32,022 bases of DNA from a virus: IMG/VR virus record IMGVR_UViG_3300032267_001336, positions 1 through 32,022 of that record; one strand, 5' to 3'. Shown here piece by piece: positions 2,848-29,753 of this stretch. Below the pieces are notes generated by a model, which searched no databases, was not told the origin of the DNA, and was given only the letters and a program-made list of their open reading frames with translations. Position numbers and translations under genes: made by a program. Positions within the stretch are counted from its first letter, which is position 1, and each line of letters opens with the position of its first letter.

Positions 2848-3000
2848 CTATCTACTCCCATTAAATTGGTGTAAAAAGTTATTGCAAAATAAGCTATGCA
2901 CCCAATACATAGTCTGTGTTATTTCATCATTATAACCAGCTAAATTAACTAATTGTCTTAAAGTGGTCCCAATAATTAATGCATAAAATATGTTTTTCAT
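2848..3000 (-). CDS. Small hydrophobic protein (50 residues)
   Basis: The ATG at 3000 directly follows the holin stop, with GGGAG upstream at good spacing. The product has a short hydrophobic N-terminus (IFYALIIG) and ends FNGSR, the same last four residues (NGSR) as the holin. The 16-base sequence that encodes this end and the next ribosome site is duplicated (2849-2864 and 3002-3017). The sequence resembles no known family. Placement between holin and lysozyme suggests a possible lysis accessory role. Confidence 0.5.
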   Translation of the reverse strand: MKNIFYALIIGTTLRQLVNLAGYNDEITQTMYWVHSLFCNNFLHQFNGSR

Positions 3001-3017
3001 TTATCTACTCCCATTAA
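2849..3017 (-). repeat. Junction repeat family B (two copies)
   Basis: The 16-base sequence TATCTACTCCCATTAA occurs at 2849-2864 and 3002-3017. On the coding strand each copy encodes the NGSR end of a gene and supplies GGGAG for the next start. The two host genes (holin and the 50-residue protein) are otherwise unrelated. Confidence 0.7.
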
Positions 3018-3426
3018 GTTTAGCCATTCCTCTTTGCCCAAAATAAAAAGTAATTATATACCCAAGTATAGCCCCATCTTCTTCACTCCAAAGCTCACCA
3101 TCATTACCATTAAAAATTATAGCTAGCTTAATTCCAGCATAAAGAGCAAACATCAAATAGCTAATAACAGGGCGGACACTGGCAGAAAGATTTATAAAAA
3201 ACTTACTAGCCTTTTCATCTCTTTTTGTTTCTTGAATAACTCTATTGTTAAAAGCCTCTGCATCTATAGCTTCTTGTTTGGCAATAAATCCTTTTTCTTC
3301 CCTTTCCGTTTGCATCTTTAAAACAGCAAGTTCGTGCTTTTTGTCTGATTTATCCCTAAACGCTTTAAAGACATCTGGTAAGATTGATTGGAAAAGACCA
3401 AATAGTGAACCAAGCAATGTTAGCAT
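3001..3426 (-). CDS. Holin, GTA_holin_3TM-like
   Basis: The 141-residue product has an amphipathic or hydrophobic N-terminus, a charged helical middle (residues 24-75), a membrane segment containing SVRPVISYLMFALYAGIKLA, and the C-terminal ITFYFGQRGMAKL. The RP-V-I-Y block and the FGQR end are the signature of the 3-TM holins described from gene transfer agents and proteobacterial phages. Such holins open the inner membrane and release the lysozyme encoded downstream on the same transcript. Confidence 0.82.
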   Translation of the reverse strand: MLTLLGSLFGLFQSILPDVFKAFRDKSDKKHELAVLKMQTEREEKGFIAKQEAIDAEAFNNRVIQETKRDEKASKFFINLSASVRPVISYLMFALYAGIKLAIIFNGNDGELWSEEDGAILGYIITFYFGQRGMAKLNGSR

Positions 3427-3720: not shown

Positions 3721-3748
3721 AATTTACTCCTTTGTTTTTGTTTTAGTT

Positions 3749-3939: not shown

Positions 3940-4065
3940 TTAGCACCTCCGTGCATTAGGGTTAAAAATAAAAGCAAAAATGACAGCAAAATAAATATTT
4001 GCCAAAACATCAGTTGGCTGAACAATCATTAAAAGCGAAGCAATCGCTATATGAATATACATCAT
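3940..4065 (-). CDS. Tiny membrane protein (41 residues)
   Basis: The ATG at 4065 overlaps the upstream stop as ATGA, and the gene ends 5 bases before the next start; its last codons carry the GGAGG ribosome site of that gene. The product has two hydrophobic stretches (IHIAIASLLMIV and IYFAVIFAFIF) and a basic end, so it should be an inner-membrane peptide, possibly a lysis helper. No homology is claimed. Confidence 0.55.
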   Translation of the reverse strand: MMYIHIAIASLLMIVQPTDVLANIYFAVIFAFIFNPNARRC

Positions 4066-4340
4066 ATCGCCCCCTCTGGTTTAACAAAGTTAGGACTAAG
4101 GTTATACTTCCAACATTCTTTTAAAGACGCCTTAGTTTCTAATAATTCTTGCTTGGTTATTTCTAACTCTGATTTAGCACTGTTAATAACAACCGTTGTG
4201 CCAAGAATTAATACAATGGCGGCTAGTATAATAGTTGAAATTTTATAACCATGATGTACTTTTTCTGCGACTGTGCCTCGTATCGGCTTTCCCCAGCCAG
4301 TGCTGATATCCATTAGAGGTTCTTTTTTATCATTTGTCAT
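4062..4340 (-). CDS. Single-helix membrane protein with coiled coil, possibly spanin-like
   Basis: The 92-residue product has a basic N-terminal part, one membrane helix (about residues 34-54, ISTIILAAIVLILGTTVVI) and then a predicted coiled coil (SELEITKQELLETKASLKE). This topology is like an inner-membrane spanin (Rz), and the gene lies upstream of holin and lysozyme in the same cluster. However, the helix is not at the extreme N-terminus and the coiled coil is short, so the spanin idea is only an inference. The start (MTND) belongs to the repeated junction family described below. Confidence 0.6.
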   Translation of the reverse strand: MTNDKKEPLMDISTGWGKPIRGTVAEKVHHGYKISTIILAAIVLILGTTVVINSAKSELEITKQELLETKASLKECWKYNLSPNFVKPEGAI

Positions 4341-5133
4341 TTTTAACCTCCTTTATTTTATTAAAAACTCCCAGTTTATCTAAATCGGGCTTTACCTTTT
4401 CAGCCCAAAACCACCAATCGACACGTCCATAGGGGGCGTGGATTTTTGGGAACGTTTCTTTGGTAAAATTAAGCCAATCTTCAATAGAAGCTTCCGTATA
4501 GTTAATTGCTATTTTATATTTAGTATAAACAACCTCCGTCCCTTCTTTTTCATACTCTAGATTAAATATATTTTTATTATCACCCTTACAATACCCTATT
4601 TTGGCATCTTTAAAGTTGGCTTGTTCCAAATTACAATCGTGGAAACTTACCCCATATAATATAGCTCCAGTAAAATCGGCATCAGTTAAATAACATTTTG
4701 TAAATACCGTATTTGTTAGTTTGGCGTTTTTAAAAGATGTTTTTCTAAAATCACAATATTTAAAATACCCATCACAATCCGCCCCATCAAACTTAGCATA
4801 ACTAAAGACGCTATGCCTTGCGGATATTTCTTGTAGGGTTGAATTTATAAAAGAAGCTCTCTTTGCTTCTACATCATTAAATTCAATATCAAGCCTACAA
4901 AAACTTTCGGAAGTTTTAAGGTCGGGCGGGAAAACGCAATTATTAAAAACACCGCCGTCTGATACTAAGGGGTTATACCCACCAGAAACAGCCTTAGAAA
5001 AATTAAGCCCAGTATAATCTTCGTGTAATCTGTAGCCTAAAAATTCCCCATTATCACCATATCTTTTAGCTTGCTCAAAAACTGCATTACCTAAGGATAT
5101 AGCCTCTTTTTTTGAAAGTTTTTTATTTGTCAT
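4330..5133 (-). CDS. Pentapeptide-repeat protein
   Basis: About residues 85-185 of this 267-residue product form consecutive pentapeptide-like repeats (for example KFDGADCDGYFKYCDF and ADFTGAILYGVSFHDCNLEQ), which fold into a right-handed four-sided helix. Phage and bacterial members can mimic DNA or bind DNA enzymes such as gyrase, but that role is not shown here. The C-terminal 60 residues are not repeats. The gene begins MTNKK and ends VKNDK at repeated junctions, overlapping both neighbours by 11 bases. Confidence 0.75.
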   Translation of the reverse strand: MTNKKLSKKEAISLGNAVFEQAKRYGDNGEFLGYRLHEDYTGLNFSKAVSGGYNPLVSDGGVFNNCVFPPDLKTSESFCRLDIEFNDVEAKRASFINSTLQEISARHSVFSYAKFDGADCDGYFKYCDFRKTSFKNAKLTNTVFTKCYLTDADFTGAILYGVSFHDCNLEQANFKDAKIGYCKGDNKNIFNLEYEKEGTEVVYTKYKIAINYTEASIEDWLNFTKETFPKIHAPYGRVDWWFWAEKVKPDLDKLGVFNKIKEVKNDK

Positions 5134-5470
5134 TTTTAACTCCTATGTTTTCAATATAAATTACAGGTTTGTCGTTGCGTTGGATTATTCTTTTGTATTT
5201 ATCTGCATTATTAAAATGCTCTAAGGTTACGGAATTATAAGGGTTATCGCTATCATTTATAATCTCAAAATGCCAATCACCCAATCTTACTATATCACCC
5301 TCCTTTACCTCATTTTCTTTACTTAGTGCTTCAATATTAAGTGCGTCAAGTATAGCTCCAATGCCCGCCTTTTCGCACGTTGAAACGTCCCAGCTTTCAT
5401 GTTCACTATAAGCTAAATTAAAAATATTAAATAGTTTTTCAATCGCTATTTCTCTTGGATTATTTGTCAT
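5123..5470 (-). CDS. Hypothetical acidic protein (115 residues)
   Basis: The start is placed at 5470 (MTNNPRE) by analogy with the neighbouring junctions; an ATG at 5482 is in frame four codons earlier. The middle contains a small beta-barrel-like stretch (KEGDIVRLGDWHFEI). It ends GVKNDK, overlapping the next gene by 11 bases. No family is recognised. Confidence 0.6.
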   Translation of the reverse strand: MTNNPREIAIEKLFNIFNLAYSEHESWDVSTCEKAGIGAILDALNIEALSKENEVKEGDIVRLGDWHFEIINDSDNPYNSVTLEHFNNADKYKRIIQRNDKPVIYIENIGVKNDK

Positions 5471-5789
5471 TTTTAACTTCATTAAGTTTATCTTCTAAAT
5501 GTTTGTTTTTTAAATCCTTAAGAACTCCATCAAAACGATCCAAGTAAGATTTTAATATAAATGTAAGAAACTCTAAATCAGTTACATCATCTTTACCTAC
5601 TTGAGTAAATAAAACATTTTCAAGCAAATCAAGAAAGGATATTAAGCCATGAAAGGAAAAACCCTCATTAATATCCCATATAGCTCTTGCTAGTTTATCA
5701 GCTTCGTCGTCATTAAGTTTTCTGCCAATCCACCTCTCAAGTGAAGAGGTAAAGGGAAATTCTATTTTTACTTTTTCCTTATTTGTCAT
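5460..5789 (-). CDS. Hypothetical protein (109 residues)
   Basis: The product is largely helical and acidic and contains WIGRKLNDDEADKLARAIWD. It starts MTNKEK and ends NEVKNDK, sharing junction sequence with the genes on both sides while its body shows no similarity to them. No family is recognised. Confidence 0.6.
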   Translation of the reverse strand: MTNKEKVKIEFPFTSSLERWIGRKLNDDEADKLARAIWDINEGFSFHGLISFLDLLENVLFTQVGKDDVTDLEFLTFILKSYLDRFDGVLKDLKNKHLEDKLNEVKNDK

Positions 5790-6027
5790 TTTTAGCCTCC
5801 TTGTTTTTAATTTCTAACACAACCGTTTCAAATAACTCTGAAAAGGCTTGAGCTACTTTAATCTCTTGACTTTTTAAAATTGGCTTACCTAAAACATTTT
5901 GCATATATTTTAAAAAAGCCAACCTTAATTCTGCTCTCTGTAGATACGATTCTGTTTTTTCCGTTGGCATCTTTGGATTTTCCAACTCCCCACTTATTAA
6001 ACCTTTTGGTGTTTTATCTTTTTTCAT
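5779..6027 (-). CDS. Hypothetical protein (82 residues), first gene of a small operon
   Basis: The product is basic at the N-terminus (MKKDKTPKG) and helical afterwards; it ends KEAKNDK at the first of four repeated junctions. A strong promoter lies 27 bases upstream of the start, so this gene leads the 6027 to 1247 transcript unit. No family is recognised. Confidence 0.65.
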   Translation of the reverse strand: MKKDKTPKGLISGELENPKMPTEKTESYLQRAELRLAFLKYMQNVLGKPILKSQEIKVAQAFSELFETVVLEIKNKEAKNDK

Positions 6028-6053
6028 AAACCTATTTATTAATTACTATGTTG

Positions 6054-6082
6054 ATAATAGGTGTAAAATACGACTATGTCAA
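6054..6082 (-). promoter_or_regulatory. Leftward promoter before the 6027 gene
   Basis: On the minus strand the -35 is TTGACA (6077-6082) and the -10 is TATTAT (6054-6059), with a 17-base spacer containing TAGTCGTA. TGTTGA overlaps the -35, and TCAACA follows the -10, an inverted pair that may be an operator. It closely resembles the promoter at 17821-17849 both inside the spacer and just past the -10. Confidence 0.75.
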
Positions 6083-6090
6083 CAGTTATT

Positions 6091-6345
6091 TTAATATTTC
6101 TCACCTTTATAGTCAGGCTCGTATAAAAATGGACTAAGAGTGGGGTTTAACTTTATGTAGTTCTCCATTTTCTCCACTTTATCTAGGCTTAGTTTATATC
6201 CATACCTTTTGTTTTTTAAGTGAAATATGGAAGCATTTTCTTTATAGCCCACTATATCACTAATTTGTTTTGGCTTAAATCCTGCTTTAATTAAATCATT
6301 ATAAGCCTTATCAAAGCGTTCTCTTAATGTTAATCTATTTTCCAT
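6091..6345 (-). CDS. Small putative helix-turn-helix DNA-binding protein
   Basis: The 84-residue product has a helical N-terminus and the stretch KPKQISDIVGYKENASIFHL, which fits a helix-turn-helix (residues about 25-45), followed by a basic loop KNKRYGYKLS. A transcription-control role is likely but inferred. Its ATG overlaps the nuclease stop by 11 bases, so both are made from the same mRNA. Confidence 0.5.
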   Translation of the reverse strand: MENRLTLRERFDKAYNDLIKAGFKPKQISDIVGYKENASIFHLKNKRYGYKLSLDKVEKMENYIKLNPTLSPFLYEPDYKGEKY

Positions 6346-8820: not shown

Positions 8821-9714
8821 TTACTCCTTTGTTTTTGTTAGATTGTTAAGTTTAGTTTTTAGATAATTTATTAAAATAGCCATTTTATCTTCTGCCACTT
8901 CCTCAAAAGAATCAGCATTGTTTTTCTTTAGCCATTTCTCTATCTCATCTTCTGGAAGTTTCACAACATCTAGTAAGTTGTTGGCTTCCGTTATTTGCTC
9001 TGGTTTAGCTGGAACAAATAAATTACCCTTAGATTCTATAACACTTTTACCATACTTTTCAGCAAAAGTTTCATAGTTCCATTCAAATACACTAGCAGGA
9101 CTAAAAGTTTCAATCCTTGACTTAATAACAACTGCCCTTCTATTTAATCCGTTGGAAGTAATTTGTAGAGATAAATCAAGTTCATAGTCTAACTTATCTG
9201 CACCATCAAATGTTTCTCCAACCTGCTCCCCTTTTTTCCACAAGGCTTTCTCGTGGGCAATAAGAATTACATTCATATCAAGTTTTTCTATCCACTTTAA
9301 TAGTTGACGGAAATATTGATTAGCTGGTTTTTTAGATGCTCCAAAGTCAGATACTGTGATGTCTTTCTTTTTAGATTCAGCTTCTGCTATTTCTAAGTTT
9401 ATAATCTTAGAGATACTATCTATCACTAAAGTTTTATAGTTATGCTGTTCTGTAGCCAAAGCTCTAACCTGCTCTATAATATCATTAAAACTTTGTGAGC
9501 CATCTTCTTTACCAAGATAAACTCCACCAGCCTTTAATAATTTATTTTGATATTGTGGTTGAGTTGCTCCGCCTTCAGTATCTATATAATATACAGAAGG
9601 GAAATCTAACGCAACCCAAGTTTTACCAATACCAGCTTTGCCAAATACTAAAATCTTTGGTTTAGTTGGTTTAACCTCTAAAGGTTTTTTTGCCTTTAAT
9701 TTACTTATTGTCAT
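8821..9714 (-). CDS. RecA-like ATPase (AAA_24, Sak4-like recombinase)
   Basis: From the ATG at 9714 (GAGG upstream) the product has 297 residues: Walker A GKAGIGKT (25-32), YYIDTEGG (42-49) and Walker B TLVIDS (95-100). This is the AAA_24/Sak4-like group of small RecA-fold ATPases used in phage single-strand annealing and recombination. The frame is open further upstream, but that part covers the promoter and would add a non-conserved hydrophobic extension, so the longer form is rejected. The SSB-like protein downstream is the expected partner. Confidence 0.82.
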   Translation of the reverse strand: MTISKLKAKKPLEVKPTKPKILVFGKAGIGKTWVALDFPSVYYIDTEGGATQPQYQNKLLKAGGVYLGKEDGSQSFNDIIEQVRALATEQHNYKTLVIDSISKIINLEIAEAESKKKDITVSDFGASKKPANQYFRQLLKWIEKLDMNVILIAHEKALWKKGEQVGETFDGADKLDYELDLSLQITSNGLNRRAVVIKSRIETFSPASVFEWNYETFAEKYGKSVIESKGNLFVPAKPEQITEANNLLDVVKLPEDEIEKWLKKNNADSFEEVAEDKMAILINYLKTKLNNLTKTKE

Positions 9715-9733: not shown

Positions 9734-9774
9734 TTGACAATGTTTATTTTAGGAGTAATAAAAGACATTGTCAA
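9734..9774. promoter_or_regulatory. Overlapping divergent promoters in a perfect inverted repeat
   Basis: TTGACAATGT (9734-9743) and ACATTGTCAA (9765-9774) form a 10-bp perfect inverted repeat; inner TTTATT/AATAAA extends the symmetry. Leftward: -35 TTGACA (9769-9774), 17 bases, -10 TAAAAT (9746-9751), for the ATPase gene. Rightward: -35 TTGACA (9734-9739), 16 bases, -10 TAATAA (9756-9761), for the regulator and primase. Both -35 boxes are inside the repeat, so one protein dimer or tetramer could shut both. Confidence 0.72.
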
Positions 9775-9791
9775 CAATAATAATTTAAAAT

Positions 9792-9971
9792 ATGAAAAAA
9801 CCCAACAAAAAGAAAAAAACAGATAAAGTGGATGTTCACCTTTATTTGCCACTAAAGCTAATAGCTGAATTAGATGCCTATGTAAAAAAACAGGAGGAAT
9901 ATTCTGGCTATAGCAGACCTCAAGTTATTAGACTAGCCATAACAGAATACTTGGAAAGGGTTAAGGCTTAA
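9792..9971 (+). CDS. Ribbon-helix-helix transcription regulator (59 residues)
   Basis: A basic N-terminus (KKPNKKKKTDK) leads into VDVHLYLPLKLIAELDAYV and then SGYSRPQVIRLAITEYLERV: one beta strand followed by two helices, the CopG/Arc-type ribbon-helix-helix pattern. Such proteins bind inverted repeats as dimers of dimers. The gene lies immediately beside the divergent promoters and their 10-bp inverted repeat, so autoregulation and control of the replication genes are likely. No clear ribosome site is seen. Confidence 0.8.
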   Translation: MKKPNKKKKTDKVDVHLYLPLKLIAELDAYVKKQEEYSGYSRPQVIRLAITEYLERVKA

Positions 9972-12709: not shown

Positions 12710-12982
12710 TTACTCCGTTGGTTTATTATCATTCCAAGAATATCCAGCCCATTTTCCTGTAGGTTTTAGGTCAAGTCCAGATAGCATTCCATTTCCTTCC
12801 GTAAGAGTGCTGAACATTCTACGATATTGAGTGTAGCCTTTTTTGATTAGTTTTTTTACTTTTTTTGAGTTTAAAAGGTTTTTGGCTTCAATGTCTGTAT
12901 CTTCGTAAAGCTCCATTTTAGCCTCTAGGTCATTTGGATTAATAAATACAAAAAAATGATAGACTGTGTGTGGTTTTGGCAT
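12710..12982 (-). CDS. Hypothetical protein (90 residues)
   Basis: The ATG at 12982 has a strong GGGGGAG ribosome site. The product has a beta-like N-terminus (TVYHFFVFIN), a basic middle (SKKVKKLIKKGYTQYRRM) and an aromatic end (GKWAGYSWNDN). It overlaps the upstream gene by 44 bases, unusual here and explained by a shifted junction repeat. No family is recognised. Confidence 0.6.
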   Translation of the reverse strand: MPKPHTVYHFFVFINPNDLEAKMELYEDTDIEAKNLLNSKKVKKLIKKGYTQYRRMFSTLTEGNGMLSGLDLKPTGKWAGYSWNDNKPTE

Positions 12983-13340
12983 AATTACTCCCCCTGTTGA
13001 TTGTTATTTCCTTGTCTCTTACTTCAATTAATTGAATTAACTCCAATCTTTTTTCTTCAAGATGCTTTTGGCTTACCTCATCACTATTTTTATTTAAATT
13101 AAAGTCAAAACAGAGGGCTTTTAAATGCCTCATAAAATTTACCTCTGTCGCATATTCTTCTAGCTTTAAATATCCCACTATCCCCAATAAAGTAGCCTCA
13201 CGCCCTAAAATTAATTCAAACAACCCCCCCTTTATGTCTTGAATGTAATTTTGGCTTTTTTCATCGGTTGTTATAAATTTATCTATAGAACAAATAAATT
13301 TGTAAAGTCTCTGTATAAACTCAAGTTCTGTGTTAGCCAT
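12939..13340 (-). CDS. Hypothetical protein with an out-of-frame C-terminal extension
   Basis: From ATG 13340 (GGGG upstream) the product has 133 residues, mainly helical with acidic patches. Its last 18 residues are read through the junction repeat and into the next gene in a different frame. In the sister junction at 13338-13367 the same DNA ends the gene as NNQQGE and stop. A one-base shift near position 13005 would restore that ending. No family is recognised. Confidence 0.55.
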   Translation of the reverse strand: MANTELEFIQRLYKFICSIDKFITTDEKSQNYIQDIKGGLFELILGREATLLGIVGYLKLEEYATEVNFMRHLKALCFDFNLNKNSDEVSQKHLEEKRLELIQLIEVRDKEITINRGSNYAKTTHSLSFFCIY

Positions 13341-13367
13341 ATTATTCCCCTTGTTGATTGTTAATAA
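12980..13367 (-). repeat. Junction repeat family C (two copies)
   Basis: Copies at 12980-13006 and 13338-13364 read, on the coding strand, TAACAATCAACA-R-GGGGA-R-TAAT-W-ATG. They supply a G-rich ribosome site and the ATG of the following gene, and in the second copy also the NNQQGE ending of the preceding gene. Confidence 0.75.
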
Positions 13368-15879: not shown

Positions 15880-16296
15880 TTAAAGGTTGAATCCTGCATA
15901 TTTTAATTCATTTTCAAAATCTGCAAGCTCTTCTGCTACATAATGAGAGAGAAGGGCGTAAGCTAATTGAAAACTATCTATATCGCAAAGATTTGTTCTA
16001 TGGTCTTGCTCTATGATGAGAGAAAGGCTTAGTTGTAGAGTGGCATCATACTTTACAAGGAATTTTAAAGCCTCTTGGGGTGTTTTAAAGGTAAAGGTTT
16101 CGCTTGCCTCTTGTATTTCTTCAATAGCCTTCTTTACGGAATGCGTCTTTACTTTTGCCATCATCTGCCAAACAGAATAGATAGATTTTAAAACAGGGCA
16201 TTTATTATATAAATCCCAAATTTTCTGTATTTCTTCTTTATTGTAAAAATCTAGGATTTTAAACCCCGCCTTTAGTTCTTTTTGTGTTCTAGTCAT
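15880..16296 (-). CDS. Hypothetical helical protein (138 residues)
   Basis: The product is mostly alpha-helical (KKAIEEIQEASETFTF, ALKFLVKYDATLQLSLSLII) with a C-terminal acidic helix. It overlaps the upstream gene by 8 bases. No family is recognised. Confidence 0.6.
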   Translation of the reverse strand: MTRTQKELKAGFKILDFYNKEEIQKIWDLYNKCPVLKSIYSVWQMMAKVKTHSVKKAIEEIQEASETFTFKTPQEALKFLVKYDATLQLSLSLIIEQDHRTNLCDIDSFQLAYALLSHYVAEELADFENELKYAGFNL

Positions 16297-16678
16297 TGAT
16301 TGCCTCTTGGTTGGTTGTTAAATTTTCCCCATTCAATTCTTGAAATCTTTCAGTTAAATATACAAGCACATCACCCACTTTTAAATTTTCTATTCTCTTG
16401 GTTAAATTATCAAGAATTTGCTGGGGCGTTTCATTGTAGAAGTTTTCTTTTGCAACATCCCTACCTACAAATAGATTTTCACCCTGCAAAAACCCCAAAT
16501 AATAAGTTTTATCATCTTCAAACAAAGAAAGTTTAATGCTACCTATAAGAAAGGATTTTACAAAGTTTAGTTCCTTGATTATATTTTCCCTTGTGTATTC
16601 AATGCAAACTTCAATACCTCTTCTTTTAGGTTTCCAGCTATTTCTAGGGTTGTAGGCTGTTATTATATTAAGTTTCAT
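16289..16678 (-). CDS. Hypothetical protein (129 residues)
   Basis: A basic N-terminal part (RNSWKPKRRGIEVCIEY) is followed by beta strands and a helix. It ends NLTTNQEAIND, sharing the LTTNQ junction with its neighbours. The start lacks a ribosome site and is preceded by AACAACTAACCAATTATAAAT. No family is recognised. Confidence 0.6.
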   Translation of the reverse strand: MKLNIITAYNPRNSWKPKRRGIEVCIEYTRENIIKELNFVKSFLIGSIKLSLFEDDKTYYLGFLQGENLFVGRDVAKENFYNETPQQILDNLTKRIENLKVGDVLVYLTERFQELNGENLTTNQEAIND

Positions 16679-17001
16679 ATTTATAATTGGTTAGTTGTTA
16701 AATTTTCATTACTAATAACAACTTCTCCATTTTCTAAAACAGCCACTAACTCCCCCTCTTCTATCTCTTCAGCTATAATTCGCTCGAAGTGTCTAATGGC
16801 TTGTTCCTTTGCTTTTTCTCCATAAATATGAAAAGAAAATAAATCTATATTGTTCTCTCGTAGTAGAGCCATAGTGCTAAATTGCCCCCATACATCATAA
16901 TATTTTAGCTCTCTGTTTTTTAAAAATTTTAAATCAGGTAGTTTTTTTACTATTTTATAGTCGTTTAATGTTTTCATAATGTTTATTGGTTAGTTGTTAA
17001 G
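16307..17001 (-). repeat. Junction repeat family D (three copies)
   Basis: TTAAC-AAC-Y-AACCAA on the coding strand occurs at 16307-16322, 16687-16702 and 16985-17000. Each copy codes for LTTNQ at or near the end of the upstream gene and lies just before the next start, in place of a Shine-Dalgarno sequence. Shorter relatives (AACC-TTTAAC-YAAT) precede the starts at 15263 and 15867. Confidence 0.7.
16681..16977 (-). CDS. Hypothetical protein (98 residues)
   Basis: The product ends with a beta hairpin (GELVAVLENGEVVISNENL) and the shared LTTNQ residues. It is preceded by an AACAACTAACCAATAAAC leader. No family is recognised. Confidence 0.6.
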   Translation of the reverse strand: MKTLNDYKIVKKLPDLKFLKNRELKYYDVWGQFSTMALLRENNIDLFSFHIYGEKAKEQAIRHFERIIAEEIEEGELVAVLENGEVVISNENLTTNQL

Positions 17002-17771
17002 GTTTGATTATTAGCTTGAATAATCCTATCCACTGTTTTTATAATTCTATTTACCGCTTCAACTGGGATATTATCAGGCGTTTTAATCCAATGCTTGATA
17101 TAAGCCCTTGAGCCTTCAAGCTCTGCGTCATTATATAAGCCTAGAATTTTACAAACAAAATAAGCCACGCCCTCCGCCTCAAGTTCTTTAATATCCCTAT
17201 CTAAAAAATTACTATCATTTAAAACCCCCTCTTGATTGCCATGCAATAAACAGTGTGCTATTTCATGGATAGCGGTTTGAAGTGGTTGAGTATTTAAAGG
17301 ACTAATGGCAATAGTTTTATTTTTTGGTCTAGCATAACCTAAACAACCATTTTGAACCGTGCTAAACTCTTCTAATTTAATAGAAAATTTAGCCAATACT
17401 TTATTTAAATCAAATTTAGTTTCTATTTCTTTATCAATTACGAAATCTTGCGGGGCGTTAGTTTGAGATAAACCAAACCAGTAGAATTTTTCTAAAAACA
17501 CCTGTTTTGCCTCTTCGCTCCCATCTTCTAACTCTTTTTTGAATACAACGGGCATAAGTAAAGCAATAGCCTTTTCTCCTTTCTTTACTTGATAGCCTAA
17601 CTCTTGCCATTTTTTATAGGTGGCAATAGGCTCTAATTTTCCAAGTTGTGAGCCAGCCCTTAATTTATTTTGAAAAGAATAATTTTGCATTATCTTAAAA
17701 TAGGCTGGTAATTCATCAGCTTTATTAAAAAGATTGATTAACTCTTGTTTATAGTCTATTTGGATTTTCAT
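16983..17771 (-). CDS. ArdC-like antirestriction protein
   Basis: The 262-residue product has an N-terminal ArdC (DUF1738-type) single-stranded-DNA-binding part with YSFQNKL, KKWQELGYQVKKGEKAIALL and YWFGLSQT, and a C-terminal zincin with HEIAHCLLHG (His169, Glu170, His173) and ELEAEGVAYFVCKILGL supplying a third ligand. ArdC proteins shield incoming DNA from type I restriction. It is the first gene of the long leftward early operon, under a strong promoter, as expected for a protein needed right after injection. Confidence 0.87.
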   Translation of the reverse strand: MKIQIDYKQELINLFNKADELPAYFKIMQNYSFQNKLRAGSQLGKLEPIATYKKWQELGYQVKKGEKAIALLMPVVFKKELEDGSEEAKQVFLEKFYWFGLSQTNAPQDFVIDKEIETKFDLNKVLAKFSIKLEEFSTVQNGCLGYARPKNKTIAISPLNTQPLQTAIHEIAHCLLHGNQEGVLNDSNFLDRDIKELEAEGVAYFVCKILGLYNDAELEGSRAYIKHWIKTPDNIPVEAVNRIIKTVDRIIQANNQTLTTNQ

Positions 17772-17815
17772 AATGTTAGCTATCGGCTTAACTACATCAC
17801 TTTATTGTGATGCTA

Positions 17816-18222
17816 TGTGGATAATAGGATATATTTACGACCAAGTCAACAATAATTTAAATAAATCTTAGTTTATCCATAGAAATGTTGTAGAAAAGAC
17901 ACAAAATAATAGAAAACAAACAAAAATAGGGTTTTAATTAATATTAGTAAAGCTGTAGTATGTTTCATTAAAAGAATACAGAAAGTTAAAATTTAACCTG
18001 TTTTTGCCACAATAAATAATAGAATTTTACACAAGCAATTAAGATGGTTTAAACAAAAGAAAAAATAAAGAAAATCCAATTTTCATGGTTCTGGAAATAT
18101 AGTTGAAAGATTTTTTTAGTGGTTTTTACTGGATTTTTATAAAAACTATAAAAACTGTAAAAGCACTGTGGATAAGGATTGCAGCGATATTTTTTAAAAT
18201 ATTTTTATAAAACTATAAAAAT
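17816..18222. other. Candidate replication origin region
   Basis: This gene-free, very AT-rich stretch holds two perfect TTATCCACA boxes (17816-17824 and 18167-18175, both reading TGTGGATAA on the + strand) and a one-mismatch box at 17873-17881. Immediately before the second box is a 9-base tandem array: TATAAAAAC (18138-18146), TATAAAAAC (18147-18155), TGTAAAAGC (18156-18164). A second array TATAAAAC-TATAAAAAT lies at 18206-18222. DnaA boxes next to iterons and AT-rich DNA, between divergent early and late operons, fit an origin; no function is proven. Confidence 0.5.
17821..17849 (-). promoter_or_regulatory. Leftward early promoter for the ardC-led operon
   Basis: On the minus strand -35 TTGACT (17844-17849), 17-base spacer with GGTCGTA, -10 TATTAT (17821-17826). 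The DnaA-like box TTATCCACA overlaps the -10 (17816-17824). Just downstream, CATCAC-TTTATT-GTGATG (17795-17812) gives a 6-bp hairpin near the 5' end of the mRNA. The promoter is nearly a copy of that at 6054-6082. Confidence 0.78.
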
Positions 18223-25834: not shown

Positions 25835-27049
25835 ATGGCTACATCTCAAATTTCAACCTCAAATGCTTTAGCAGCCAAAAAATGGTCAGACAAAGCGTAT
25901 ATAGATTCATTTAAAAAGTCAGCTTATGGCTTTGCCTTAAAAAAAGGCATACTTTCTCCTGAATATACTTTTCAAGGAAAAGGCGACGAAGTAACAATTC
26001 AAACTCAAGGTATCCTTACTGGTGCTGGTCAAGGTGAAGGTAACACTTTGGAAGGCAACGAAGAATCAATCAACTATGGTAGCTTTAAAGCTAGATTTGG
26101 TTTAACTAGACACGCAGTTCGTTATGAATCTGGTGGTTCAATGACTTCTAAAAGAAATGCTGCTGCTGGTGAAGATGGTGTTCCTAATGCTCAAGTTGGT
26201 CAAGCTCTAATGGGTTGGATGAACTCAAGGGTTGACACTTCTTTCTTCAATCAATTAGCTGGCTTAGATGCAACTTCAATCCCACTTACTGATGGTGGTG
26301 GCACAACTTACACTGGAACTTCAAAAGAACTTGTGCAAGGTTTAAACACTGTTGCCGCTCCTTCCACTTCAAGAATTATAAGAGCTGGTGGCGTTGCGAA
26401 CGATCAATCTCTTGCTGCTACACTTGATTTCAACTTAATTGATGCTGCTTTAGAGTTGCTTTCTACTACTACTCCTACTGCACTTCCTTTAAATGAAAGT
26501 GATTTCCAGTTTGTTTTATTTATATCTCCACAACAATTTACAGATCTAAAAAGAAGCACATCTACTGCTACAATTAGATGGAGAGATTTACAGCAATCTA
26601 AAATGGAAGGCGGTCAAAAAGGACAAATTGAAACAGCTTCTGGCTTTAACAATCCTCCTGAATTAGTTGGTATTTACGGTGGCGTAGGTATCTATGTATC
26701 TAATAGGGTGGCTTATGGTCAAAGAAGTGATACTTCTGCTGTGATTACTACTGTAAGAAGAGCTATTCTTTGTGGAAGAAAAGCTGCTGTGTATCTATCA
26801 CCTAAAAATGGTGTGAATTACATAGGGGCTGGCGTTTCTGCTTCTAGCGAGCTTCAAAGTGGCTTATTGGACGGTTCTATTGAGCTTCCGATACAAGCAG
26901 TAAAGCAATCTTTTGATTATAACCTATCAGAAGGTATTGGAATAAATGCTTTTTACGGCATTAAAAAATTCCAAGTGCAATCTGCGGGTAACACAGAGGA
27001 TTTAAGCTCTATTGTTATCTCCACTGTTGCAGCCGCTCACACTTCTTAA
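25835..27049 (+). CDS. Major capsid protein (DUF4043/N4 gp56-like)
   Basis: The 404-residue product forms the icosahedral shell. The run YTFQGKGDEVTIQTQGILTG, then EGNEESINYGSFKARFGLTRHAV, matches the pattern of the Phage_capsid_3 (DUF4043, N4 gp56) family: K-G-D-V-T, G-N-EE-x-L, and R-x-A-V. An HK97 fold is expected. It follows a scaffold gene and has its own promoter and leader structure. Its codons are richer in GCT and GGT than in the early genes, suitable for high expression. Confidence 0.85.
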   Translation: MATSQISTSNALAAKKWSDKAYIDSFKKSAYGFALKKGILSPEYTFQGKGDEVTIQTQGILTGAGQGEGNTLEGNEESINYGSFKARFGLTRHAVRYESGGSMTSKRNAAAGEDGVPNAQVGQALMGWMNSRVDTSFFNQLAGLDATSIPLTDGGGTTYTGTSKELVQGLNTVAAPSTSRIIRAGGVANDQSLAATLDFNLIDAALELLSTTTPTALPLNESDFQFVLFISPQQFTDLKRSTSTATIRWRDLQQSKMEGGQKGQIETASGFNNPPELVGIYGGVGIYVSNRVAYGQRSDTSAVITTVRRAILCGRKAAVYLSPKNGVNYIGAGVSASSELQSGLLDGSIELPIQAVKQSFDYNLSEGIGINAFYGIKKFQVQSAGNTEDLSSIVISTVAAAHTS

Positions 27050-29444: not shown

Positions 29445-29753
29445 ATGGCATTTAAAAAATTCAACAACTCAACTTTACGCTATACTACAATGATTTGGCT
29501 ACCTTTTGGCGGTAGAAAATGGGCAGAGAAAGTATTGGGTAATGCTAGCGAAATACATGACTTAGACTACGAAGTGCAGACCAAAACTCGCAAAGAGGCA
29601 GATAAAAACTGGCTTAAGCGAGTAAAGCAAAATGTTAGAATTGAAACTGGTTATTTTGAAAAAAGTGCTATATCTTTTGCTGGATATTTAGGTTACGGAA
29701 TATTAAGGGCTTTTGGTTGGAGACGCTGGAATAAACATAAAAAACAGAGGTAA
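29445..29753 (+). CDS. Small virion-region protein with a phospholipase A2-like motif
   Basis: In this 102-residue basic product, NASEIHDLDYEV (His38, Asp39, Tyr42) followed by KEADKNWL (Asp53) resembles the HDxxY...AD core of viral phospholipase A2 domains known from parvovirus capsids. Such an enzyme could help the virion breach a membrane. The match is short and is an inference; it could also be an unrelated helical tail protein. Position: between two tail genes. Confidence 0.5.
   Translation: MAFKKFNNSTLRYTTMIWLPFGGRKWAEKVLGNASEIHDLDYEVQTKTRKEADKNWLKRVKQNVRIETGYFEKSAISFAGYLGYGILRAFGWRRWNKHKKQR

Follow-up and report, generated by a model that had tools for sequence, protein, structure and literature searches.

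Repeated stop/start joints as probable boundary sequences for whole-gene gain and loss in an uncultured bacterial virus

Introduction

The origin of phage mosaicism is debated, the two positions being random breakage followed by selection and recombination at short homologies (PMC3945230). The locus described here raises the question of why four consecutive gene borders of one phage operon carry almost the same short sequence. It belongs to an uncultured bacterial virus known from IMG/VR record IMGVR_UViG_3300032267_001336, and the window is the whole of that record (32,022 nt). An earlier reading made from the letters alone, referred to here as the sequence-only reading, had proposed that gene cassettes are exchanged by recombination at these matching junctions. 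The comparison with a related phage supports that proposal: two genes of the window are absent core to core from the relative, whose remaining junctions are hybrids. The repeated junctions very probably act as short conserved boundary sequences where homologous recombination adds or removes whole genes, and short-homology recombination at gene borders is well supported.

The repeated junction and its operon

The genes concerned form a closely packed minus-strand run directly downstream of a promoter-like site (TTGACA-17-TATTAT, positions 6082-6054, recognised by its match to the consensus). The first four borders of this run carry a sequence called here core A, TTAAAAATGACAAATRA, with one mismatch in one of the copies. 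A scan of the entire 32,022-nt record allowing at most one mismatch located the 17-mer at 4330-4346, 5123-5139, 5460-5476 and 5779-5795 and at no place outside these four borders, which confirms the nearly identical stretch of about 21 bases described by the sequence-only reading. In the order of transcription, the junctions are j4 (5779-5800, GGAGGCTAAAAATGACAAATAA), where gene 5779-6027 ends and gene 5460-5789 starts, j3 (5460-5480, GAAGTTAAAAATGACAAATAA), j2 (5123-5143, GGAGTTAAAAATGACAAATAA) and j1 (4330-4351, GGAGGTTAAAAATGACAAATGA), all of them on the minus strand. Core A codes for the tail of the upstream gene, (V/A)KNDK and its stop, and for the beginning of the next one, MTN. The two genes overlap by 11 nt (ATGACAAATRA) at all four borders, the start ATG opening the overlap.

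The earlier description of each repeat as stop, ribosome site and start holds in part. The stop and the start are present in all four copies; a Shine-Dalgarno-like stretch precedes core A clearly in j1, j2 and j4 but is degenerate (AATGAAG) in j3, whose core is intact. Across the four junctions conservation is lowest in the ribosome-binding part, and the coding part 3' of the start is constant. This is the reverse of the pattern that selection on ribosome binding alone would leave.

The first gene of the operon (5779-6027, 82 aa) ends in EAKNDK and has only its first 16 codons in common with the relative. It is followed by a cassette gene of 109 aa (5460-5789) that belongs to no family and has no relative among annotated phages, and by a backbone gene of 115 aa (5123-5470, MTNNPRE...GVKNDK), whose start, set at 5482 by the ORF caller, is better placed at 5470. 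The next cassette gene (4330-5133) codes for a pentapeptide-repeat protein of 267 aa, and its sole relative among annotated phages is a 33% match in Microcystis phage MaAM05. Two backbone genes come after it, one of 92 aa (4062-4340, MTNDKKE...KPEGAI), which is 51% identical to its orthologue in the relative, and one starting MMYIHIAIAS (3940-4065), which is conserved there.

Related repeats of about 56 nt are present three times in the window, at 6046-6101, 9738-9793 and 17813-17868, and each includes a promoter-like site on the minus strand (TTGAC-17-TATTAT or TAAAAT). Two of the three sit upstream of runs of minus-strand genes that begin at 6027 and 17771. The repeats may serve as a common operator; the window also codes for a ribbon-helix-helix protein, at 9792-9971.

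Statistical weight of the repeats

The likeness of the four core-A starts was evaluated with a position-specific start model derived from 42 further starts in this genome. Sixteen of 19 columns are invariant in the four starts (P = 4.5e-12 per quadruple), and the maximum among 2 million simulated start quadruples was 12. As a control, adjacent same-strand gene pairs were inspected in 35 other AT-rich phage loci, where 2 of 613 share an in-register run of at least 14 nt; this control uses the same-locus rate for adjacent pairs only, the cross-locus side being contaminated by near-identical contigs. An assembly error is an unlikely source of the core-A repeats, since a 16-nt repeat is shorter than the k-mers usually employed in assembly.

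Search for relatives

A junction 18-mer was scanned against 2.9 million viral contigs and gave 23 loci, with one match each, while a second such scan gave 4 loci, each also with a single match. Among the 23 loci checked, only one, IMGVR_UViG_3300044627_004287 (36,460 nt, called here G001), has a second close core copy and aligns to the junction region; the others look like chance matches or single starts. Protein scans of viral contigs with genes 5123-5470, 3001-3426 and 29445-29753 likewise gave G001 as the sole close relative, and no query, the pentapeptide cassette included, gave another close one. The terminase retrieved only loci with 26-43% identity and the helicase retrieved no relatives. 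Scans of bacterial genomes with genes 5123-5470 and 29445-29753 gave no close relative, and no cultured phage was found to be similar to the window at the DNA level.

Core-to-core differences between the window and its relative

The window from 1.2 to 6.04 kb is collinear with G001 from 24.7 to 30.04 kb. Both phages have the same backbone order (the start of MKKDKTPKG..., MTNN..., MTND... and MMYIH...), and between the backbone genes they differ by whole genes. The sequence-only reading had suggested aligning related phages and looking for genes deleted precisely between two copies of the repeat, and this is what G001 displays: genes 5460-5789 and 4330-5133 are missing from it, and the missing segments span exactly core to core.

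The remaining G001 junctions are hybrids, with the left flank of one window junction and the right flank of another. Where gene 5460-5789 is absent (junction Ja), the core is identical to that of j4 (18/18) and the downstream flank is that of j3 (26/29, against 7-11 for the others). The upstream flank of Ja matches j4 only moderately (20/33) because a different gene is there in G001. Where the pentapeptide gene 4330-5133 is absent (junction Jb), the upstream flank is that of j2 (30/33; others 11-18) and the downstream flank that of j1 (21/29; others 11-14). G001 also has a further gene (MINTIED...EAKNDK), which is flanked by Ja on one side and by a half core, AAGGAGGCTAAAAATGA, on the other.

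The converse case involves a second core, AGAGGGGGCRATATGA, that is unrelated to core A and codes for EGAI-stop/Met. The window has one copy (AGAGGGGGCGATATGA, 4062-4077, minus strand), and G001 has two copies, Jc and Jd, with an extra gene of 98 aa between them. The lone copy of the window matches Jc in its upstream flank (37/40) and Jd in its downstream flank (39/40). There are therefore at least three clean single-gene events with hybrid joints in one genome pair, and in all three the change of partner falls within the core. Exact identity between the recombining copies extends over only about 16 nt (22/30 over positions -15 to +15). Since a single close relative was found, each gain or loss is seen once and cannot be polarised.

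Of the 26 alignment ends in the collinear region, 13 lie at most 20 nt from a start codon, against an expectation of 12% (circular-shift P 0.0015). The junctions are not the only places of exchange, as some mosaic breakpoints are inside genes: the middle of gene 5123-5470 has been replaced between conserved ends in the G001 orthologue, and gene 5779-6027 changes after codon 16. Three features of boundary sequences are found together here, namely the same short sequence at the borders of unrelated genes (core A), gene content that differs exactly between the copies (G001) and a hybrid boundary in the genome without the gene (Ja, Jb and the EGAI core).

Other explanations for the shared joints

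The shared sequence could simply be the ribosome site and start context favoured by this phage, reached by convergence, with illegitimate recombination making the breaks and selection leaving them at gene ends. AT-rich runs of A around the ATG are common in phage starts, many other starts of the window are of the type AAGGAG-spacer-ATGAAA, and it is accepted that phages undergo illegitimate exchange near gene ends (PMC3029335). However, the start-site model puts such a coincidence at a P of about 4e-12, core A occurs at four borders only, and the identity runs past the ATG through codons 2-3 and includes the upstream stop, even in j3 with its degenerate ribosome site. Convergence does not predict the flank-hybrid junctions of G001 either, and we hold it to be quite improbable. 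Tandem duplication of one gene together with its junctions, the bodies having later diverged beyond recognition, would by reasoning likewise give equal junctions in series, but it appears very improbable. The bodies, of 82, 109, 115, 267 and 92 aa, show no BLASTP similarity where compared; among the three core-A gene bodies compared in this way, the recurring match was the VKNDK tail and no significant similarity was found, so that the bodies compared are unrelated, as the sequence-only reading had claimed. Moreover, one of them is a pentapeptide-repeat protein, yet the 16-nt border stayed identical, and single bodies are present in one phage and absent from the other. That reading had named two outcomes that would speak against it, homology between the bodies and the same gene order without swaps in related phages, and neither was seen.

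The precise core-to-core events at several places could also be taken to indicate a dedicated site-specific recombinase that recognises the cores, in the manner of an integron- or invertase-like cassette system. Against this, several unrelated core sequences behave alike, rather than a single type of site, and the window proteins scanned, which cover part of the ORFs, include no integrase, invertase or transposase. Such a system is hardly to be expected here. Homologous recombination at short boundary sequences remains the reading followed below.

How whole genes may be exchanged

In each core the stop of one gene is combined with the ribosome site and first codons of its successor. Crossing over between any two of them would consequently remove or insert exactly one gene body, and it would regenerate a complete joint of stop, ribosome site and start, leaving the operon unbroken. 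Products of this kind are what the two genomes show. An insertion would leave two core copies around the new gene and a deletion would leave one hybrid copy. Judged from the overlap, it is plausible that translational coupling is preserved after the crossover.

The exchanges are most likely carried out by annealing recombinases that the phages themselves encode. A candidate in the window is a Sak4-like single-strand annealing ATPase (8821-9714, minus strand; phrog_124, 3.7e-25; PF13479), and G001 codes for a Rad52-family protein and a YqaJ/RecE-like exonuclease, which would act there. Phage annealing recombinases are reported to act on short, diverged homologies (PMC3945230, PMC2327257), and the Sak4 of HK620 anneals single strands together with its SSB (PMC5928155). 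The minimum homology given for Red-beta is 30 bp (PMC3945230), so the efficiency of exchange over about 16 nt of identity must be low. As this length is short for annealing recombinases, replication slippage or rare events are an equally possible origin of the deletions. That the cores persist is probably a side effect of such exchanges combined with selection against broken gene ends, rather than the sign of a dedicated exchange device. A more far-reaching proposal, in which the stop/start overlap would be selected as a standard joint that provides interchangeable slots for accessory genes behind the operon promoter, in frame, translationally coupled and driven by Sak4 or Rad52, seems rather unlikely.

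Other repeated cores

Further repeated stretches were found on the minus strand of the window. The core TTAATGGGAGTAGATA, coding for NGSR-stop, is present at 3002-3017, at the end of gene 3001-3426, and again at 2849-2864. The two copies enclose a small gene of 50 aa (2848-3000); in G001 there is a different gene here and a single copy of the core. Core D (AACAAAAACAAAGGAGTAA, 3724-3742) is at the same place in G001, between non-homologous genes, and has a second copy at 8821-8839. Both phages have two copies of core C (TAACAATCAACAAGGGGAATAAT), spaced by about 357 nt, and the gene enclosed by the copies is not the same in the window and in G001. The window copies are at 13339-13363 (TAACAATCAACAAGGGGAATAATAT) and 12982-13006, and the upstream ORF reads the latter in another frame. 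The use of core C in more than one reading frame, together with the core-A stretch after the start, which is more constant than the ribosome site (j3), indicates likeness at the DNA level. ORF 12939-13341 reads core C off-frame and runs 44 nt into the next gene, while in the relative the reading frame stops at the core.

Core B (TTAACAACTAACCAAT, LTTNQ tail) has copies at 16985-17000 and 16686-16701. The consecutive genes 16983-17771, 16681-16977 and 16289-16678 have LTTNQ-type tails derived from the repeated TTAACAACTAACCAAT stretch, and the starts that follow these tails are without a clear Shine-Dalgarno sequence.

Some other traces were observed. For instance, a 34-nt fossil of a lysozyme gene start is present in G001 at 26489-26522 (in L059) and ends in a short dead reading frame; next to it comes an insert, a gene of the ImmA/M78 type, and beyond the insert the lysozyme start is intact. 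The window codes at 2610-2861 for a truncated M78/ImmA-type peptidase (profile positions 68-121 of 123), of which G001 has a full-length homologue at 25942-26469. In another uncultured phage (L033), two non-adjacent genes on the plus strand share a 23-nt start context, AAGGAGAATTAAAATGACTACA, at 16494 and 17641, which suggests that the phenomenon occurs in other phages too.

Significance and comparison with known systems

The window and its relative preserve both parental junctions and the hybrid for several single-gene gains or losses. They suggest that about 16 nt of joint suffice when these extend across stop, ribosome site and start, so that operons could swap genes with expression kept. 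They also provide a simple signature for searches of all phage genomes: a core repeated at successive borders, and a single hybrid core in a relative.

In lambdoid phages, homologous recombination takes place at short conserved intergenic sequences, according to Susskind and Botstein (1978) and Clark et al. (2001, HK620) as these are cited in PMC3029335. The window resembles that account in having short conserved sequences between genes as a source of modular exchange. However, in-register identity between the starts of different genes does not exceed 10-11 nt in the lambda and HK620 nin regions, whereas the window shares 14-16 nt at four consecutive borders. The PeSLs of T4-type phages, mobile regulatory cassettes associated with Arbiol et al. 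2010 and Comeau et al. 2014 (both in the references of PMC4503421), are repeated short intergenic elements and are said to mediate modular shuffling. They are similar to the cores in being repeated short elements tied to such shuffling, but PeSLs are promoter or terminator elements between genes and the cores lie where coding sequences overlap.

Start-associated sequences of Cluster K mycobacteriophages are 13-bp repeats of the GGGATAGGAGCCC type located 3-7 bp upstream of starts (PMC3203893). Both cases present a short repeat beside many start codons of one genome. The Cluster K repeats lie upstream of the start, genome-wide, and have been described by position (PMC3203893), whereas core A covers the upstream stop as well as the start codons and marks places of gene gain or loss. 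Core A, which reads TTAAAAATGACAAATRA and spans the start, is not a sequence of that type.

The closest signature is that of gene 67-68 of mycobacteriophages Island3 and Brujita, where an extra gene is flanked by repeats and a relative has a single recombinant copy, made of the upstream part of one repeat and the downstream part of the other (PMC3029335). The same hybrid-copy signature is found in the window and G001. The Island3/Brujita case is one event at a repeat of 50-60 bp at 3' ends (PMC3029335), while the cores of the window extend over about 16 nt from stop to start and are associated with at least three clean events in a single genome pair. The principle is already known from lambdoid phages and from Island3/Brujita; what differs here is that four borders in succession use one and the same stop/start joint, with other families of joints in the same genomes.
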